Below, one piece after another: positions 1 through 33,404 of a stretch of 33,404 nt of DNA. Location: NCBI GenBank assembly GCA_017460885.1, contig JAFUAB010000048.1:1-33404 (forward strand), written 5' to 3'. Every line of letters starts with the position of its first letter. The stretch's first letter is position 1. The notes under the pieces are model-generated. The model did no database searches, had not been told where the DNA came from, and saw only the letters and a list, made by a program, of their open reading frames with translations. This stretch comes from Lachnospiraceae bacterium. Lineage in GTDB: Bacteria > Bacillota > Clostridia > Lachnospirales > Lachnospiraceae. Made by a program: the position numbers and the translations under genes.

Positions 1-33
1 AAACGACAAAAGTATTTATACTTTTAGTCGTTT
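1..33. repeat. Imperfect hairpin at the window start
   Basis: The arms AAACGACAAAAGTA and TACTTTTAGTCGTTT pair around a short TTTA loop with one bulged base. A second inverted repeat follows directly at about 37-84, where GGATTTGC pairs with GCAAATCC. Together with the palindrome at 101-141 this makes a run of three hairpins just upstream of a truncated gene, so the block probably belongs to one inserted element whose left limit lies outside the window. Confidence 0.6.
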
Positions 34-5958: not shown

Positions 5959-8900
5959 ATGAACAAGAAAAGATGTTTAACGGCAATGACATTGGCCATA
6001 ATAATGGCCGTATCTTCGGTCTGGCCGGTAAGGGCAGAGGCTGAAACATTTTCATCAGAAGATTTGGATGATTCATATAATGATGATTCTATTGATGAAA
6101 ATCCGGAAGATTTCCGCATTGAATCCTCAGAAGAGATTGATAATCTATCTTCTGAAAGCGGATCAGATGAAAACTATTCTTGGGAATATGACAGTGAAAC
6201 AAAATCACTCACGATAATTGGCAGTGGGGAGATTGAGAATAAACCGTGGATTTCTGATTGGGGCAAGGAAGTAGAGCATATAACAATTAAATCTACGGGG
6301 GCAACAGATGCCGGACAATTATTTTATGGCATGGAAAAAGTAAAAGATATTGACCTGTCAGAATTTGACACAAGCAATGTTACGAATATGGAGGGCATGT
6401 TTCATAGATGTACCTCGCTGACAAGTCTTGACCTGTCAGGTTTTGACACAAGCAAGGTTACGAATATGAAGTGGATGTTTTATAAATGTCTCTCTCTGAC
6501 AAGTCTTGACCTGTCAAGTTTTGACACAAGCAAGGTTACGAATATGGAGGGCATGTTTGGAGAAAACTTTCTGACAAGTCTTGACCTGTCAAGTTTTGAC
6601 ACAAGCAAGGTTACGAATATGAAGTGGATGTTTTATGAATGTCACTCTCTGACAAGTCTTGACCTGTCAAGTTTTGACACAAGCAAGGTTACGAATATGG
6701 AGGGCATGTTTTATCAATGTTACTCTCTGACAAGTCTTGACCTGTCAAGCTTTAACACAAGCAATGTTAAATATATGAACGGTATGTTTGGTGGTGGTAA
6801 CTCTCTGACAAGTCTTGACCTGTCAAGTTTTGACACAAGCAATGTTACAAGTATGAGCGTGATGTTTGGAAGTGACTCTCTGACAAGTCTTGACCTGTCA
6901 AGTTTTGACACAAGCAAGGTTACGAATATGAACAGTATGTTTGGTGGATGTAACTCTCTGACAAGTCTTGACCTGTCAAGTTTTAACACAAGCAATGTTG
7001 CAAATATGAGCTTGATGTTTTCTCAATGTTACTCTCTGACAAGTCTTGACCTGTCAAGTTTTGACACAAGCAAGGTTACGCATATGGGCTGGATGTTTGA
7101 TGAATGTACCTCTCTGACAAGTCTTGACCTGTCAGGTTTTGACACAAGCAAGGTTACGAATATAAACAATATGTTTGATGGATGTAGCTCGCTGACAAGT
7201 GTTGACCTGTCAAGTTTTGACACAAGCAATGTTACAGGTATGAGCGGGATGTTTGGTGGATGTAACTCTCTGACAAGTCTTGACCTGTCAAATTTTGACA
7301 CAGGCAATGTTATAGGTATGGTCAGGATGTTTGATGAATGTACCTCCCTGACAAGTCTTGACTTGTCAGGATTTGACACAAGCAAGGTTACGGAGATGGA
7401 TCGCATGTTTAGGGACTGTTCCTCACTAAAAGCAATTAAAACCCCATATATCACCGTTACTGAAACAGACTTGCCATTTACAATGTATGACTCTGAAACT
7501 GGTACGGCTTACGATTCAATTCCCATATTGACGGGAAAAAGCCTTACCCTAGTCCGTGACATGTCAATCGATCCCACGCTGTTATTTGTTGAGAGAATCA
7601 TCACCTTGAACAAATCAACTCTGGAACTTGAAAAGGGCAAAACAGAGATACTGACAGCACGGATTACTCCGTCAGACGTAACGGAGAATACCATCATGTG
7701 GGACAGCAGTGATCGTCTTGTGGCTACTGTTGATTCAAATGGTACGGTTACTGCCGTGGCTGCTGGAAATGCTGTAATAACGGCAAGCACCATAAGTGGA
7801 ACCATCTCAGCAGAGTGCCATGTAAAGGTAACAGATCCGAATGCGGCAGATGACCCTGGAGATAATCCGAGTGAAGGAGAAAATGACCATGGCGACGTCC
7901 TCCCCGGAGACGTTCCGTCTGACGGCATCATCCCCGAAGGCATCTGGGTAGCGGGCATTGAAGATGTGTCTTATGCCGGAATCCCGCTTGAGCAGAATTT
8001 CTGCGTATATGACGGAACGACGATGCTCGTGGAAAAAACGGATTATTCCGTCTCATACAAAAACAACAAAAACGTTTATCAGATGGCTGACAGGAATAAT
8101 CCCTCTGCCGCGGACAAGACCAAGGCTCCGCAGGTAACGATCAAGATGAAGGGGAATTATTCGGGCTCCCAGACACTGTATTTCAGCATCCTGCCGCAGA
8201 GCGCGAGCGAGGCTTCTGAATCATCACTTGCCAAGGTTGACATGAGCAAGGTTAAAGTAGCCAAGATACCCGGCCAGACATACACGGGCAGCGGAATTAC
8301 GGTGACTGACCTAAAGGATGCTTCCGGAGCCGCATATGCCCTTGGCATCACCTATCAGAACAAGCCGCTGACACTGGATGAGGACTACTGCGTGGCAAGC
8401 ATCGCCCATTCCACGGGCGTCGGAACCGCGACGGTGATCCTTAAGGGAATGCAGGCATCCGCAAGCGATACGGGATGCTCCTTCACCGGTGAAAGGAAAG
8501 TCACGTTCAGGATCACGGCCAAGCCGATTACGGCAGAGTCGATAACCATTAACGACGGCAAGGACGTTTCCGCCGCATACGCAAAGGGCGGTGCCACTCC
8601 ATCCATCGTCGTAAGGGACGGCAGTCAAAAACTCAAGGCCGGTAAGGACTATACGCTCAAATTCTCCAACAATGACAAGGTTGCTTCTGCTAAGGACTCC
8701 AAGGCTCCGACCGTGACGATCATCGGCAAGGGCAATTATGCCGGGAAGAGGCCGGTTGCTTATGACATAACCGGGAGAGTCTTTGGAGAGGAAATGACCA
8801 TACTGGCATCTGACGTGACGGAATCGTCGAAAGCCGGCAGGTTCTCCGCCAAAATACAGGCATTTGACGGCAACGGCATGCTCCTGAAGGCGGGAACGGA

Positions 8901-9354
8901 TTATGAGAAGACCGTTCGGTATTACTATGATGCGGCTGGGACAAAGGAAGTGTTAAAAACTGATACTCCCACCGCCGGTACAGTCCTGTACGCGGCTGTA
9001 ACAGGAAAAGGCGCATACAGTAGTGATACAGTATATGCTCCGTATACAATACTTTCGAAGGACCATGACATAAGCAAGGCAAAGTTCTCAATCAAGCCCC
9101 AGACATATACCGGCAGTCAGGTGCTCATTACCAGTCAGGATCAGTTTGACAAGGCCATTCTGGGAACTGACACATTGTCACTTAACGCTGAGAACGGATT
9201 TGAGGTGGTTCCCGGAACATATCAAAACAATGTTAAGAAAGGAACGGCCAAGGTTACCCTGCATGGTACCGGAACTTACGGGGGATACAAGACCGTGACG
9301 TTCAAGATCGGCACCAGATCGATACTTGACTGGTGGAAGGGTCTTTTCAGCTGA
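5959..9354 (+). CDS. Secreted BspA-like repeat protein with Ig-like domains
   Basis: The 1131-residue product begins with a signal peptide (MNKKRCLTAMTLAIIMAVSS, cleavage near PVRAEA). After an acidic Ser/Asp-rich stretch come 14 tandem DUF285/BspA repeats of mostly 26 residues (pattern LDLSSFDTSKVTNM..MF...SLTS) at about residues 131-492. A bacterial Ig-like Big_2 domain follows at ~548-628 (LNKSTLELEKGKTEI, ATVDSNGTVTAVAAGNAVI), then a Pro/Gly/Asp linker and at least three beta-rich repeats with a shared KAPxVTIxGKGNY motif up to the end. There is no LPXTG motif or choline/SLH anchor; the protein ends ILDWWKGLFS. Adhesion or host/fibre binding is the usual inference for such proteins. Start chosen from the AGGAGA site nine bases upstream. 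Confidence 0.85.
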   Translation: MNKKRCLTAMTLAIIMAVSSVWPVRAEAETFSSEDLDDSYNDDSIDENPEDFRIESSEEIDNLSSESGSDENYSWEYDSETKSLTIIGSGEIENKPWISDWGKEVEHITIKSTGATDAGQLFYGMEKVKDIDLSEFDTSNVTNMEGMFHRCTSLTSLDLSGFDTSKVTNMKWMFYKCLSLTSLDLSSFDTSKVTNMEGMFGENFLTSLDLSSFDTSKVTNMKWMFYECHSLTSLDLSSFDTSKVTNMEGMFYQCYSLTSLDLSSFNTSNVKYMNGMFGGGNSLTSLDLSSFDTSNVTSMSVMFGSDSLTSLDLSSFDTSKVTNMNSMFGGCNSLTSLDLSSFNTSNVANMSLMFSQCYSLTSLDLSSFDTSKVTHMGWMFDECTSLTSLDLSGFDTSKVTNINNMFDGCSSLTSVDLSSFDTSNVTGMSGMFGGCNSLTSLDLSNFDTGNVIGMVRMFDECTSLTSLDLSGFDTSKVTEMDRMFRDCSSLKAIKTPYITVTETDLPFTMYDSETGTAYDSIPILTGKSLTLVRDMSIDPTLLFVERIITLNKSTLELEKGKTEILTARITPSDVTENTIMWDSSDRLVATVDSNGTVTAVAAGNAVITASTISGTISAECHVKVTDPNAADDPGDNPSEGENDHGDVLPGDVPSDGIIPEGIWVAGIEDVSYAGIPLEQNFCVYDGTTMLVEKTDYSVSYKNNKNVYQMADRNNPSAADKTKAPQVTIKMKGNYSGSQTLYFSILPQSASEASESSLAKVDMSKVKVAKIPGQTYTGSGITVTDLKDASGAAYALGITYQNKPLTLDEDYCVASIAHSTGVGTATVILKGMQASASDTGCSFTGERKVTFRITAKPITAESITINDGKDVSAAYAKGGATPSIVVRDGSQKLKAGKDYTLKFSNNDKVASAKDSKAPTVTIIGKGNYAGKRPVAYDITGRVFGEEMTILASDVTESSKAGRFSAKIQAFDGNGMLLKAGTDYEKTVRYYYDAAGTKEVLKTDTPTAGTVLYAAVTGKGAYSSDTVYAPYTILSKDHDISKAKFSIKPQTYTGSQVLITSQDQFDKAILGTDTLSLNAENGFEVVPGTYQNNVKKGTAKVTLHGTGTYGGYKTVTFKIGTRSILDWWKGLFS
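6349..7434 (+). repeat. 14 tandem ~78-base repeats encoding DUF285 units
   Basis: Each unit contains a nearly identical core (CTGACAAGTCTTGACCTGTC, then AGTTTTGACACAAGCAA) followed by a variable stretch around the Met-Phe positions. Units 3 and 7 are one codon shorter. High DNA identity among units suggests recent amplification and easy copy-number change. Confidence 0.9.
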
Positions 9355-30594: not shown

Positions 30595-31113
30595 ATGAGT
30601 TCAAGCAGTAGAAATGCAAAAAAGAATACACTCCTCAAGATCGCTGAAGTCGTTGGCTCGATCCTTGATACGGTTCTTAAGATCGCGATAATCGTCTTTC
30701 TTGCGATGGTCATTTACCGCGGAGCACTGGTTGCCTATGACTATGGCTACAGGGTATTTACCGAGGCACCGGTGTCGGTAGGGGAGGGACGCATTATTTC
30801 CGTTGAGATCAAGGCCGATATGTCCGGCCGCGATATAGGCGAAATGCTGCAGCGCAAGGGTCTGATCAGAGACTCGAGGATCTTTTATATCCAGGAGTTG
30901 CTAAGTGAACACCGTGGTAAAGAGGTTCCCGGCATTTATGACCTGAGCACGGCAATGACCGCTGAGGAAATGCTGGCTGTTATCAGTCCCACCGGCGAGG
31001 AAACCGAGGAAGAGGAAGAAGCACCTGCCATTCCGGAGCCCGTTGAGGAATTATATATCCCGGAGGATGATATGGAGGGCGCGGCCGACGCCGAACCTGC
31101 AACTGTCGAATAG
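30595..31113 (+). CDS. MltG/YceG-like membrane protein without the catalytic domain
   Basis: MltG is a membrane-bound endolytic transglycosylase that terminates glycan strands. This product has only 172 residues: a basic N-terminus, one transmembrane helix (~residues 28-48, KIAIIVFLAMVIYRGALVAY), then a LysM-like subdomain (VEIKADMSGRDIGEMLQRKG, IFYIQELLSEHRGKEVPGIY, MTAEEMLAVI) and a Glu/Pro-rich tail. The YceG catalytic part, about 200 residues with the active-site Glu, is absent, and no frame downstream restores it. The position between ruvX/DUF1292 and trmR is exactly that of mltG in Bacillus (yrrL). It may be a natural reduced form common in Lachnospiraceae. Confidence 0.7.
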   Translation: MSSSSRNAKKNTLLKIAEVVGSILDTVLKIAIIVFLAMVIYRGALVAYDYGYRVFTEAPVSVGEGRIISVEIKADMSGRDIGEMLQRKGLIRDSRIFYIQELLSEHRGKEVPGIYDLSTAMTAEEMLAVISPTGEETEEEEEAPAIPEPVEELYIPEDDMEGAADAEPATVE

Positions 31114-31143
31114 TGTGACACCGGGACGGTTCTGCCGACACAT
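31114..31143. repeat. REP-like unit after the MltG-like gene
   Basis: TGTGACACCGGGACGGTTCT followed by GCCGACACA begins directly after the stop codon and shares the GGGACGGTTCT core with the units at 18476 and 22117. A further GGAAGGTTCTTTTGATCC near 31155 may be the eroded second half. Confidence 0.6.
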
Positions 31144-31187
31144 TTTGAATCATGGGAAGGTTCTTTTGATCCGGATCAATACATCCA

Positions 31188-31841
31188 ATGAACACAGATC
31201 GTACAGAAAGCTATATAGAATCTCTTGAATCGCCGCTTCCCGCATATCTTGATGAACTGGCGGCAGCGGCCAGGGCGGCAGAGGTTCCGATCATCAGGCC
31301 GGCTATGATGTCCTTTATGCGGACTCTGCTGGCCATACATAAGCCAATGGCAATCCTCGAGATAGGTACTGCCATTGGTTTTTCCGCGTTATATATGAGA
31401 GAGTATTCCCCGGCTAAAGCCTCGATCACTACGATCGAAAATTACCCTCCGCGCATTGCCGAAGCACGCAAAAATCTGGAAAAACACGATACTGATCACC
31501 GGATCACGCTGATCGAGGGCGATGCGACAGAAGTTGTAAAGGCGATGGCAGGAGAAAACAGAAGCTTCGATCTCATCTTTATGGACGGACCCAAGGGCCA
31601 GTATATCCATATGTATGATGATATCAAGAAGCTCCTGAAAACCGGAGGAATCCTTCTGTCAGACAATGTGCTTCAGGAAGGAGACATCCTGGAAAGCCGC
31701 TTCGCAGTGACGCGCAGGGATCGCACGATCCACGCGCGGATGCGGGAGTATCTGTTCCGCCTCACACATGATGAGGATTATGTCACATCGGTGTTGTCTG
31801 TTGCGGACGGAGTTGCACTGAGCGTTAGGGAATCAATATGA
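31188..31841 (+). CDS. trmR: tRNA 5-hydroxyuridine methyltransferase TrmR (O-methyltransferase)
   Basis: TrmR (YrrM) methylates 5-hydroxyuridine at wobble position 34 of several tRNAs to 5-methoxyuridine. The 217-residue protein is a class I SAM-dependent O-methyltransferase: motif I AILEIGTAIGFSALYMRE, acidic ITTIENYPPRIAEARKNL, then FDLIFMDGPKGQYIHMYDDI and GGILLSDNVLQEGDILES with metal-ligand Asp and Asn. The next gene, overlapping by four bases, is a U32 protein of the TrhP type that makes the hydroxyl group, so the two steps are cotranscribed. The same order (yrrM-yrrN-yrrO) exists in Bacillus, with a single U32 gene here. Confidence 0.85.
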   Translation: MNTDRTESYIESLESPLPAYLDELAAAARAAEVPIIRPAMMSFMRTLLAIHKPMAILEIGTAIGFSALYMREYSPAKASITTIENYPPRIAEARKNLEKHDTDHRITLIEGDATEVVKAMAGENRSFDLIFMDGPKGQYIHMYDDIKKLLKTGGILLSDNVLQEGDILESRFAVTRRDRTIHARMREYLFRLTHDEDYVTSVLSVADGVALSVRESI

Positions 31842-33067
31842 AAAAACCGGAATTACTGGTACCGGCCGGAAGCCTTGAAGTGCTGAAGGTGGCCGTTAAC
31901 TACGGCGCAGATGCCGTATATATAGGAGGAGAGGAATTCGGCCTCCGTGCCAAAGCACATAACTTTTCCACAGAGGAAATGTCCGAGGGGATCCGTTATG
32001 CACACGATCATGATGTAAAAGTACACGTGACCGTGAATATCTTTGCCCATAATTACGATCTTGACGGTGTGAGAGCATATCTGTCTGAATTGAAAAAGAT
32101 CGGGCCGGATGCCCTGATAATAGCGGATCCCGGCATATTCACGCTGGCGAGGGAGATCTGTCCCGAGATCGATATTCATATTTCCACTCAGGCCAATAAC
32201 ACAAATTATGAGACGTATCTTTTCTGGCACCGCCTTGGAGCCAAAAGGGTCGTGTCCGCACGGGAGCTCTCTTTGGCAGAGATACGCGGCATCCGCGAAC
32301 ACATTCCGGATGAGATGGAGATAGAGAGCTTTATCCATGGGGCGATGTGCATTTCCTATTCCGGCAGATGCCTGTTAAGCAACTATTTCACGGGAAGAGA
32401 CGCCAATCACGGAGCCTGTACTCATCCCTGCAGATGGAAATATGCAGTGGTCGAGGAGACCCGCCCCGGTCAGTATCTGCCGATTGAGGAAAACGAGCGG
32501 GGCACATATATTTTTAACTCAAAGGATCTGTGCATGATCGAGTATATTCCCGAGATGATAGAGGCCGGCATTGACAGCTTCAAGATCGAGGGCAGAATGA
32601 AGACCGCTCTTTACGTGGCTGCTGTTGCCCGGACGTATCGATGCGCGATCGACGACTGGCTGGAGGATCCCGGGAAATACCGTGCAAATCTGGATAAATA
32701 CCGGTCCGAGATATCAAAATGCACCTACAGACAGTTTACGACGGGCTTTTATTTCGGTAAGCCCGACGAAGAAAGCCAGATATATGATTCAAATACCTAT
32801 ATCAATGAATACATATTTCTTGGTATAATATCTGAGGTGGGCTCAGACGGGTGTGCGTTGTTTGAGCAGAAAAACAAGTTCTGCGTCGGAGACGGGATCG
32901 AACTGATGAAGCCCGATGGACGAAATATCCCTGTGAAAGTGCTTGAGATGACGGACGAGGAACGCAATCCGGTCGAGAGCTGCCCTCATTCGAGACAGAT
33001 GATATATGTAAAGTTGAGTGAGGTGCCGGAGGGCGGGGATATAATGAGGATGAAAAATGAAGGGTGA
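31838..33067 (+). CDS. U32 peptidase-family protein, TrhP-like tRNA hydroxylation factor
   Basis: U32 proteins of the TrhP/YrrO group introduce the 5-hydroxyl at tRNA U34, probably using prephenate-derived chemistry and an Fe-S cluster. The N-terminal barrel has ELLVPAGSLEVLKVAVNYGA and DAVYIGGEEFGLRA; the signature region SFIHGAMCISYSGRCLLSNY followed by GACTHPCRWKY carries four Cys for the cluster; DSFKIEGRMKTALYVA is the later family motif. At 409 residues it lacks an extra C-terminal extension but is otherwise complete. The ATGA overlap with trmR and shared pathway support a tRNA role rather than proteolysis. Formerly annotated as collagenase-like peptidase. Confidence 0.85.
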   Translation: MKKPELLVPAGSLEVLKVAVNYGADAVYIGGEEFGLRAKAHNFSTEEMSEGIRYAHDHDVKVHVTVNIFAHNYDLDGVRAYLSELKKIGPDALIIADPGIFTLAREICPEIDIHISTQANNTNYETYLFWHRLGAKRVVSARELSLAEIRGIREHIPDEMEIESFIHGAMCISYSGRCLLSNYFTGRDANHGACTHPCRWKYAVVEETRPGQYLPIEENERGTYIFNSKDLCMIEYIPEMIEAGIDSFKIEGRMKTALYVAAVARTYRCAIDDWLEDPGKYRANLDKYRSEISKCTYRQFTTGFYFGKPDEESQIYDSNTYINEYIFLGIISEVGSDGCALFEQKNKFCVGDGIELMKPDGRNIPVKVLEMTDEERNPVESCPHSRQMIYVKLSEVPEGGDIMRMKNEG

Positions 33068-33197
33068 GGTATAGGAAAAGGAAGAGGAAGAGGAAGAGGA
33101 AGAGGAGAGAGGGGGTTGGTTGGGAGATTCGATATTTATGATCGATAACACGCTACCGATTTTCTAAATCAGTAAACTCATCCTCTTGATATGCATC
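33068..33197. other. Non-coding gap with GGAAGA repeat tract
   Basis: No gene is visible. Bases 33074-33111 are a pure purine tract with about four tandem GGAAGA units. No T-tailed terminator is seen for the upstream operon. The insertion boundary of the element at 33198 onward probably lies in 33150-33200; a TTGAT pentanucleotide is at 33185-33189. Confidence 0.5.
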
Positions 33198-33404
33198 GTG
33201 AAACCGCAAACGCGCTTCGCTTGAACGTAGCGGTTTCACAGCGCATATCTGCGACGATTCGTTTCTGATTGAAGCGATAGCAAACCCCCATCTGAGATGG
33301 GGGAACCGGCAAAGCCGTGGCGTTGCGTAGAGTATAAAAGAAAAACCTCCAGTGATAGAATAATGTGGGTTTCGCGATCCACAACTATCAAAGGAGGTAT
33401 CCAC
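33198..33404 (+). ncRNA. Structured leader, candidate HEARO/omega RNA or IS200/IS605 5' UTR
   Basis: About 207 bases form successive hairpins: GTGAAACCGC / GCGGTTTCAC (33198-33207 with 33230-33239), CGCA / TGCG (33242-33253), TCGTTTC / GAAGCGA (33259-33277), CCCCCATC / GATGGGGG (33285-33303), CGGC-AAA-GCCG (33307-33317) and a three-step stem CCTCC, TGATAG, TGTGG with CCACA, CTATCA, GGAGG (33346-33397). The last arm is an AAAGGAGG ribosome site seven bases before the window end, so a start codon should follow at once. Structured RNA directly before an IscB gene (HEARO/omega RNA) or the hairpin leader of an IS200-type transposase both fit. The gene itself is outside the window. Confidence 0.5.
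33346..33397 (+). promoter_or_regulatory. Hairpin sequestering a ribosome binding site
   Basis: CCTCC at 33346-33350 is fully complementary to GGAGG at 33393-33397, with two further matched blocks inside. In the RNA the ribosome site would be closed, predicting low translation of the downstream gene unless the stem is opened. This is a known way to limit transposase synthesis in IS200. Confidence 0.6.

Follow-up and report, generated by a model that had tools for sequence, protein, structure and literature searches.

An IS200-type left end at an assembly break, set in one arm of a palindromic repeat of its host

Introduction

What is the run of hairpins on which a bacterial contig breaks off? 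The DNA analysed here, which we call the window, is a stretch of 33,404 nucleotides from a source genome (G000) of 3.6 Mb in 55 contigs. The window ends where contig C48 ends; the two are of equal length, and they agree in every one of their first 400 and last 405 bases. A preliminary description, made from the letters alone, noted six consecutive hairpins at 33198-33404, took them for a single leader RNA cut by the window end, and proposed the omega RNA (HEARO) of an iscB gene lying further on, with the leader of an IS200/IS605 gene as the other precedent. As set out below, the hairpins come down to the left end of an ordinary IS200 element where the assembly breaks, preceded by a host repeat. 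The repeat is more unusual than the insertion sequence (IS) and deserves a study of its own.

Results

Hairpins at the contig end

The structure that had been noticed is real. The 207 bases fold at -80.2 kcal/mol, against -53.6 +/- 4.5 kcal/mol for shuffled sequences (n = 200), which corresponds to a z of -5.87, and none of the 200 shuffles folds as low; 33265-33404 folded alone gives a z of -5.34. The unity of the leader is another matter. When the genome is searched with its own 207 bases, the last ~140 and the first 76 recur at different places, and because the two parts recur separately we reject the idea that the whole is one RNA. The hairpins are present, divided between two parts: a host repeat, and the left end and leader of an IS element (Table 1). 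The first 76 bases are found again in contigs C3, C44 (twice) and C51 (three times), and C18 has a 28-base piece.

The first hairpin of the preliminary description is the apical hairpin of the host repeat, present in six of the seven intact repeat copies and shorter in L133. In the second hairpin (TCGTTTC/GAAGCGA around TGATT), repeat bases pair with IS bases across the junction; since the other four left ends in the genome differ there, this pairing is an accident of the present insertion. Only the hairpins from 33285 onward belong to the IS element.

Table 1. Features at the end of the window (positions in the window)
Feature	Position	Strand	Basis
Left part of the ~200-nt imperfect-palindrome host repeat, interrupted by the IS	33128..33270	- (better-folding strand)	covariance-model match
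Apical hairpin of the host repeat	33198..33239		fold
Target TGATT, immediately before the IS left end	33266..33270	+	five of five copies
Left end and tnpA leader of the IS200-type element, cut by the contig end	33271..33404	+	five copies
Subterminal left-end hairpin CCCCCATCTGAGATGGGGG	33285..33303	+	recurrence in the genome
Stem-loop pairing the Shine-Dalgarno sequence, ACCTCC (33345-33350) with GGAGGT (33393-33398)	33345..33398	+	fold
Shine-Dalgarno GGAGG of tnpA; start codon past the window end	33393..33397	+	C39 copy

The insertion sequence and its gene

Five left ends of the element occur in the genome, in C10, C26, C39, C48 (the window) and C55. They are 99-100% identical, so the copies are probably recent. 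Four of the five stop at the last base of the window or one before it, at contig ends. Five right ends lie in C6, C17, C30, C46 and C49, and no left or right end is further than about 200 bases from the end of its contig, which is what a collapsed repeat would give. The window stops at 33404, seven bases after GGAGG, because the contig breaks inside this five-copy element, and the contig end is itself a clue to the IS200 reading.

The sequence past the break, which the preliminary description had wished to see translated, can be followed in the C39 copy, which extends 197 bases beyond the window end. The frame found there is not iscB. It opens with a GTG start 8 bases after GGAGG and runs for 65 residues (VDDKSIQHTRWNCTYHIVFIPKYRKKILYG...VCVDHVHMYV), and it is that of a Y1 transposase, tnpA (PF01797, 58.1 bits); the HVH motif is visible, and the assembled part excludes the catalytic tyrosine. 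The other side of the gene is seen in the right-end contigs, which open with the last three to five tnpA codons (9-18 bases; DKLEG-stop in two of the five, KLEG or LEG in three), in agreement with relatives ending NDKLEG. These codons are followed by about 95 bases, the hairpin CCCCCATTTGAAATGGGGG and then GTTGCTAACTT (in four of the five; AACAT in C30). Both sides of tnpA are assembled, and its middle is absent from all copies in this genome; an intact transposase, judged from the two ends of the gene, is putative. As far as the element is assembled, tnpA is the only gene seen in it, and from its relatives we estimate a length of about 0.7 kb.

The subterminal hairpin type occurs at eleven places in the genome: the five left ends (CCCCCATCTGAGATGGGGG), the five right ends (CCCCCATTTGAAATGGGGG) and one diverged remnant. 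By eye, an inverted TAGCAA(A)CCCCC is common to both ends around the hairpin feet, and the outermost bases do not match. The right end in C30 (L137) reads GCTAACATGACGG, compared with GCTAACTT in the other four, which suggests that the element's final two bases may differ from target to target. Because C30 has AACAT in place of AACTT, and because the insertions into the repeat differ by one T, the element boundary is uncertain by 1-2 bases. At C10:26258-26276 (L139), a diverged right-end-like hairpin is followed by TTTGCTGACTT; this is probably an older IS200 remnant.

Relatives of the element were collected from GTDB genomes, with 79 related loci, 36 of which, mainly the best full-length matches, were examined. 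An open tnpA of 137-142 amino acids is present in 24 of the 36, preceded by a left hairpin of like kind and variable sequence. Against PF01797, the scores of two complete relatives are 128.9 and 136.3 bits, and a PDB search with one relative retrieves the ISHp608 transposase (E 1.1e-18). Many of the best tnpA relatives are labelled as Lachnospiraceae or Clostridia.

IscB and TnpB

With a HEARO RNA in front of iscB this locus shares a general resemblance only, that of many hairpins before the gene of an IS200/IS605-related element. A covariance-model search gives no HEARO match at the gathering score, nor is HEARO one of the two Rfam matches at E up to 10 over 33100-33404. The gene behind the identical leader in C39 is tnpA, which refutes the IscB reading for that copy, and the right ends come after the 3' end of tnpA. 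We reject the IscB/HEARO reading on these grounds and give it practically no chance of being correct. The domain PF14239, presumably the N-terminal domain of IscB, is without a match in the genome; the control is equally without one, which makes this a weak test. The natural guide that had been placed to the left of 33198 falls as well, since what lies to the left of the element is one half of a host repeat split by the insertion. What stands is the IS200/IS605 precedent: such an element starts here, its leader is structured, and tnpA follows in C39.

A further reading is that the element at this site carries a tnpB gene, or is a decayed or non-autonomous derivative consisting of ends and leader. 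The interior of this copy is unassembled, and in 12 of the 36 relatives tnpA is short, frameshifted or extended, or runs into the end of a contig, both of which would suit this reading. Against it, PF07282, which we take to be the TnpB domain, has no match in the genome assembly (from which the middle of the element is missing), with a working control that is matched in 6 of 14 genomes; on all five right-end contigs the right end is preceded by the final tnpA codons; and the leader copies are nearly identical. Given that tnpA is continuous with the leader in C39 and, on the right-end contigs, with the right end, only the unassembled middle of tnpA would leave room for a second gene. For this assembly, a tnpB gene was rejected on the PF07282 result and on the tnpA codons that precede the right ends, and we hold the alternative as a whole, decayed forms included, to be very unlikely. 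The IS200-type element with tnpA remains our reading in what follows.

Insertion into the host repeat

TGATT precedes the left end in all five copies, and the uninterrupted repeats have it at the corresponding position. The right junction is ambiguous by 1-2 bases and is not identical in all copies. Contig C46 starts with an IS right end, followed by the other half of the interrupted repeat at C46:141-182; of the 22 bases of the outer arm at 33128-33149, 21 can pair with C46:161-182. From the complementarity of the C48 and C46 arms, it follows that the IS sits in this copy of the repeat, after TGATT. The comparison with sites lacking the insertion, proposed at the outset, can thus be made within the genome, where the uninterrupted repeat copies show the empty site. 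Directly behind the U32-type gene, both the repeat and the IS are absent in all six sister genomes, and the next frame begins 18-102 bases on.

A second IS copy (left end in C39, right end in C17) interrupts an incomplete repeat copy, on the opposite strand; that C39 and C17 are joined across one insertion we infer from the repeat. Both repeat insertions come after CTGATT, one on each strand (C48/C46 and C39/C17; loci L003, L134 and L136). Two of the five IS200 copies thus lie in a repeat of nine copies, more than expected, with P about 6e-5 for the density of TGATT and about 0.001 for that of CTGATT; these values are rough, the densities being taken from this window alone.

Taken together, these findings make us confident that an IS200-type element, with tnpA as its single gene, has inserted into one arm of a long palindromic host repeat, 3' of TGATT. 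By analogy with the family, TnpA, an HUH enzyme with one tyrosine, would cut and rejoin single-stranded DNA at the hairpin-marked ends, and the element would insert 3' of TGATT. By eye, the elements with a TGATT target (the present one, L021 and L022) have GCAA beside the hairpin foot, and most other printed elements have TTAA at the foot and TAAAT/TTAAT-like targets, with L042 as an exception. A rule of guide-target pairing at the left end was tried and rejected: L042 breaks it, and for this reason we make no guide-target claim.

The tnpA leader

Inside the ACCTCC/GGAGGT stem, TGATAG pairs with CTATCA, and a top hairpin spans 33364-33383. In the C39 leader, each base of GGAGG is paired with a probability of 0.997 or more. 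For comparison we used 28 distinct leaders, the own copy and 27 of the 36 relatives; seven relatives were dropped because their leader is identical to one kept (L019, L029, L030, L038, L039, L041 and L044), and two because they have too little upstream sequence (L026 and L033). All five GGAGG bases are paired in 21 of the 28. At least four are paired in 27 (the own leader and 26 of the 27 relatives), compared with 43% of 1400 shuffles in which GGAGG was kept in place. The leader stems vary on both sides, as in the examples TATG/CATA and TGTG/CACA, and TGAT/ATCA and TGCT/AGCA. A second small hairpin surrounds the start codon in 24 of the 28 leaders (a count without a shuffled comparison), its stem being ATCC/GGAT in some leaders and GTCC/GGAC in others.

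Similar arrangements are described for the IS200 of Salmonella. According to one report, one of two stem-loops sequesters the transposase start codon, with the antisense RNA STnc490 lying over it (PMC2515195); in another, a leader stem-loop sequesters the ribosome-binding site of tnpA (PMC12594629). The STnc490 model (Rfam RF01405) matches 33283-33399 over its whole length at 20.7 bits (E 0.044), below its gathering score of 56. We reject membership of that family on this score and take the sub-threshold match as a hint of a similar kind of leader. Ten relatives searched on both strands match no Rfam family at threshold. If the family is a guide, the leader would keep the translation of tnpA low, with the ribosome-binding site, and mostly the start codon too, buried in stem-loops.

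The host repeat

The repeat in front of the element is a multi-copy intergenic imperfect palindrome, with seven intact copies (one each in C3 and C18, two in C44, three in C51; L126-L131 and L133) and the two interrupted ones. A covariance model, R1, was built from the seven copies of this genome, and it matches C48 33140-33300 at 107.8 bits (E 4.3e-23). The alignment of the intact copies has 195 columns with a mean column identity of 91%, and they fold as one long hairpin of 72 pairs. The repeat core lies between mechanically called open reading frames (ORFs) in all seven, and in some the outer arms touch the end of an ORF. At the gathering score, Rfam has no match in the four of the seven intact copies tested; L127 has four Rfam matches at E<=10, all below gathering, the best being JUMPstart (E 0.55). 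A literature search by words for the apical motif or by description gave no such repeat among the titles listed, and general analogues only.

Outside this genome, R1 has matches in three of the six other genomes of the genus and, with stricter filters, in four of 298 other genomes drawn from the family (repeat loci in other genomes: L159-L176 and L141-L145). Matches in two of these four, G016 and G292, are weak, with best E values of 1.7e-4 and 4.5e-4, and possibly reflect only similar hairpins. The repeat between gyrB and gyrA is absent in the four readable of six sister genomes, in which the spacing is 18-28 bases, compared with 385 here.

The arms of the repeat vary more than its core. In G216, which has six copies, the core is common and the outer arms are without visible similarity, and yet six of six left arms find their best partner in the right arm of their own copy (mean -37.8 kcal/mol, compared with -13.9 when arms are swapped). 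In G187 the arms are related, and own pairing is again best in six of six (-39.4 versus -24.0; seven copies, with L164 left out). In the source genome, including the copy in the window, self-pairing is best in six of eight (-29.9 versus -15.9).

How, then, do the arms stay complementary? They may be kept paired by selection on an RNA hairpin behind genes, or by template switching. That the repeat is a structured and selected RNA (a 3'-UTR hairpin or a small RNA) rather than a neutral palindrome is a separate question, which leaves the IS reading untouched. Within the seven-copy alignment, 96.4% of cells pair, compared with 93.3 in shuffles, and when the partner is slid by 1-3 columns only 30-46% do. 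Changes on both sides that keep the pairing are found at 11 pairs and in 21 cells (5.8 and 7.3 in shuffles), and the middle helix is nearly fixed, with 23 of 26 pairs never varying, both of which favour a selected RNA. Further pair types, numbering 17 compared with 19.9 in shuffles, are not in excess, which argues against a strong claim.

The surroundings of the repeat also bear on this reading. In 27 of 29 copies the better fold is that of the modelled strand, a count to be read with the strand having been chosen for better folding in this genome. In 26 of the 29, the 3' end of a neighbouring, mechanically called ORF faces the repeat within 200 bases, which again favours an RNA; against it, the repeat occurs in both orientations relative to neighbouring genes. 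Against it stands also template switching in DNA replication, which has been proposed as a process that creates such hairpins and maintains them (PMC8794818). On balance, we find selection on an RNA conceivable and lean somewhat towards doubt.

With the same reserve, we offer as a tentative proposal, one that could easily prove wrong, that the repeat represents a family of hairpins, ~200 nt long and as yet undescribed, in Lachnospiraceae-like genomes. Its members would lie mostly behind genes, form RNA hairpins at 3' ends and serve as landing pads for an IS200 element; core and apical motif would be conserved, and the outer arms, though unlike from copy to copy, would remain self-complementary, kept so by compensatory change or template switching.

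Other observations in the window and assembly

Contig C36 (32701 bases) appears to be a duplicate, in the other orientation, of positions 401-33101 of the window. The ends of C36, which were the parts compared, match the window at 401 and about 33100, and the U32 genes of C36 and the window do not differ in their last 208 residues. C36 stops within a GAGGAA tract, just before the host repeat; this GAGGAA-type microsatellite occupies about 33075-33110, between the stop of the U32 gene and the repeat. Such a duplication is compatible with an assembly in which contigs are duplicated or stem from mixed strains (listed contamination 6.64). At the opposite contig end, window positions 1-33 hold an inverted repeat, AAACGAC...GTCGTTT, seen by eye.

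At 30595-33067, Pfam finds a YceG-like gene (28.3 bits, under the cut-off), an O-methyltransferase gene and a U32 peptidase gene in a row, an order expected of the tRNA-hydroxylation operon that the preliminary description had named. We take the last two to be TrmR and TrhP. The frame at 5959-9354 codes for a protein of 1131 amino acids with DUF285, leucine-rich repeats and a Big_2 domain, probably a surface protein.

Discussion

A tempting guide-RNA reading is corrected here: a structured leader at the end of a contig can be the tnpA leader of an IS200 element. The IS200 way of hiding the ribosome-binding site is seen in clostridial relatives, in stems that vary on both sides. Because copies of the repeat within one genome share a core and differ in their arms, they may be a good natural test of selection against template switching and, if our reading of the repeat is true, the family would let compensatory change and template switching be told apart.

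With the IS200 group the element shares a gene for a Y1 transposase, tnpA, beside which no other gene is seen, subterminal hairpins at the left and right ends, and a leader that pairs the ribosome-binding site; insertion on the 3' side of a short target is probably shared too. It differs in its host, probably a member of the Clostridia to judge from the tnpA relatives; in its target, TGATT as compared with mostly TAAAT/TTAAT-like targets in the relatives (by eye); and in that Rfam STnc490 is matched only below threshold. What it has in common with the HEARO/IscB omega RNA is that an IS200/IS605-related element has structured RNA at its edge; it differs in that neither a covariance-model match nor iscB was found, the gene being tnpA.

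For the repeat and its occupant, the nearest comparisons are ISPpu9 and other IS elements resident in REP palindromes, the transposase of which presumably belongs to a family other than that found here, and ERIC, which is an imperfect palindrome. The targeting of REP palindromes by other IS elements has been described (PMC1525189, PMC8450116), and small IS elements within intergenic palindromic repeats are what those systems and ours share; for ISPpu9, a structure in the 5'-UTR of the transposase mRNA is reported to take part in regulation (PMC8450116, PMC1525189). REPs are 21-65 nt long (PMC6006769), whereas the repeat here is about 200 nt. Closer to it in size are the RU and ERIC repeats of enterobacteria, which are likewise multi-copy and intergenic, at 100-200 bp (PMC2759123, PMC2229807). 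Set beside ERIC, to which we liken it by description and not by sequence, the present repeat has arms that differ between copies and mostly pair best within their own copy.
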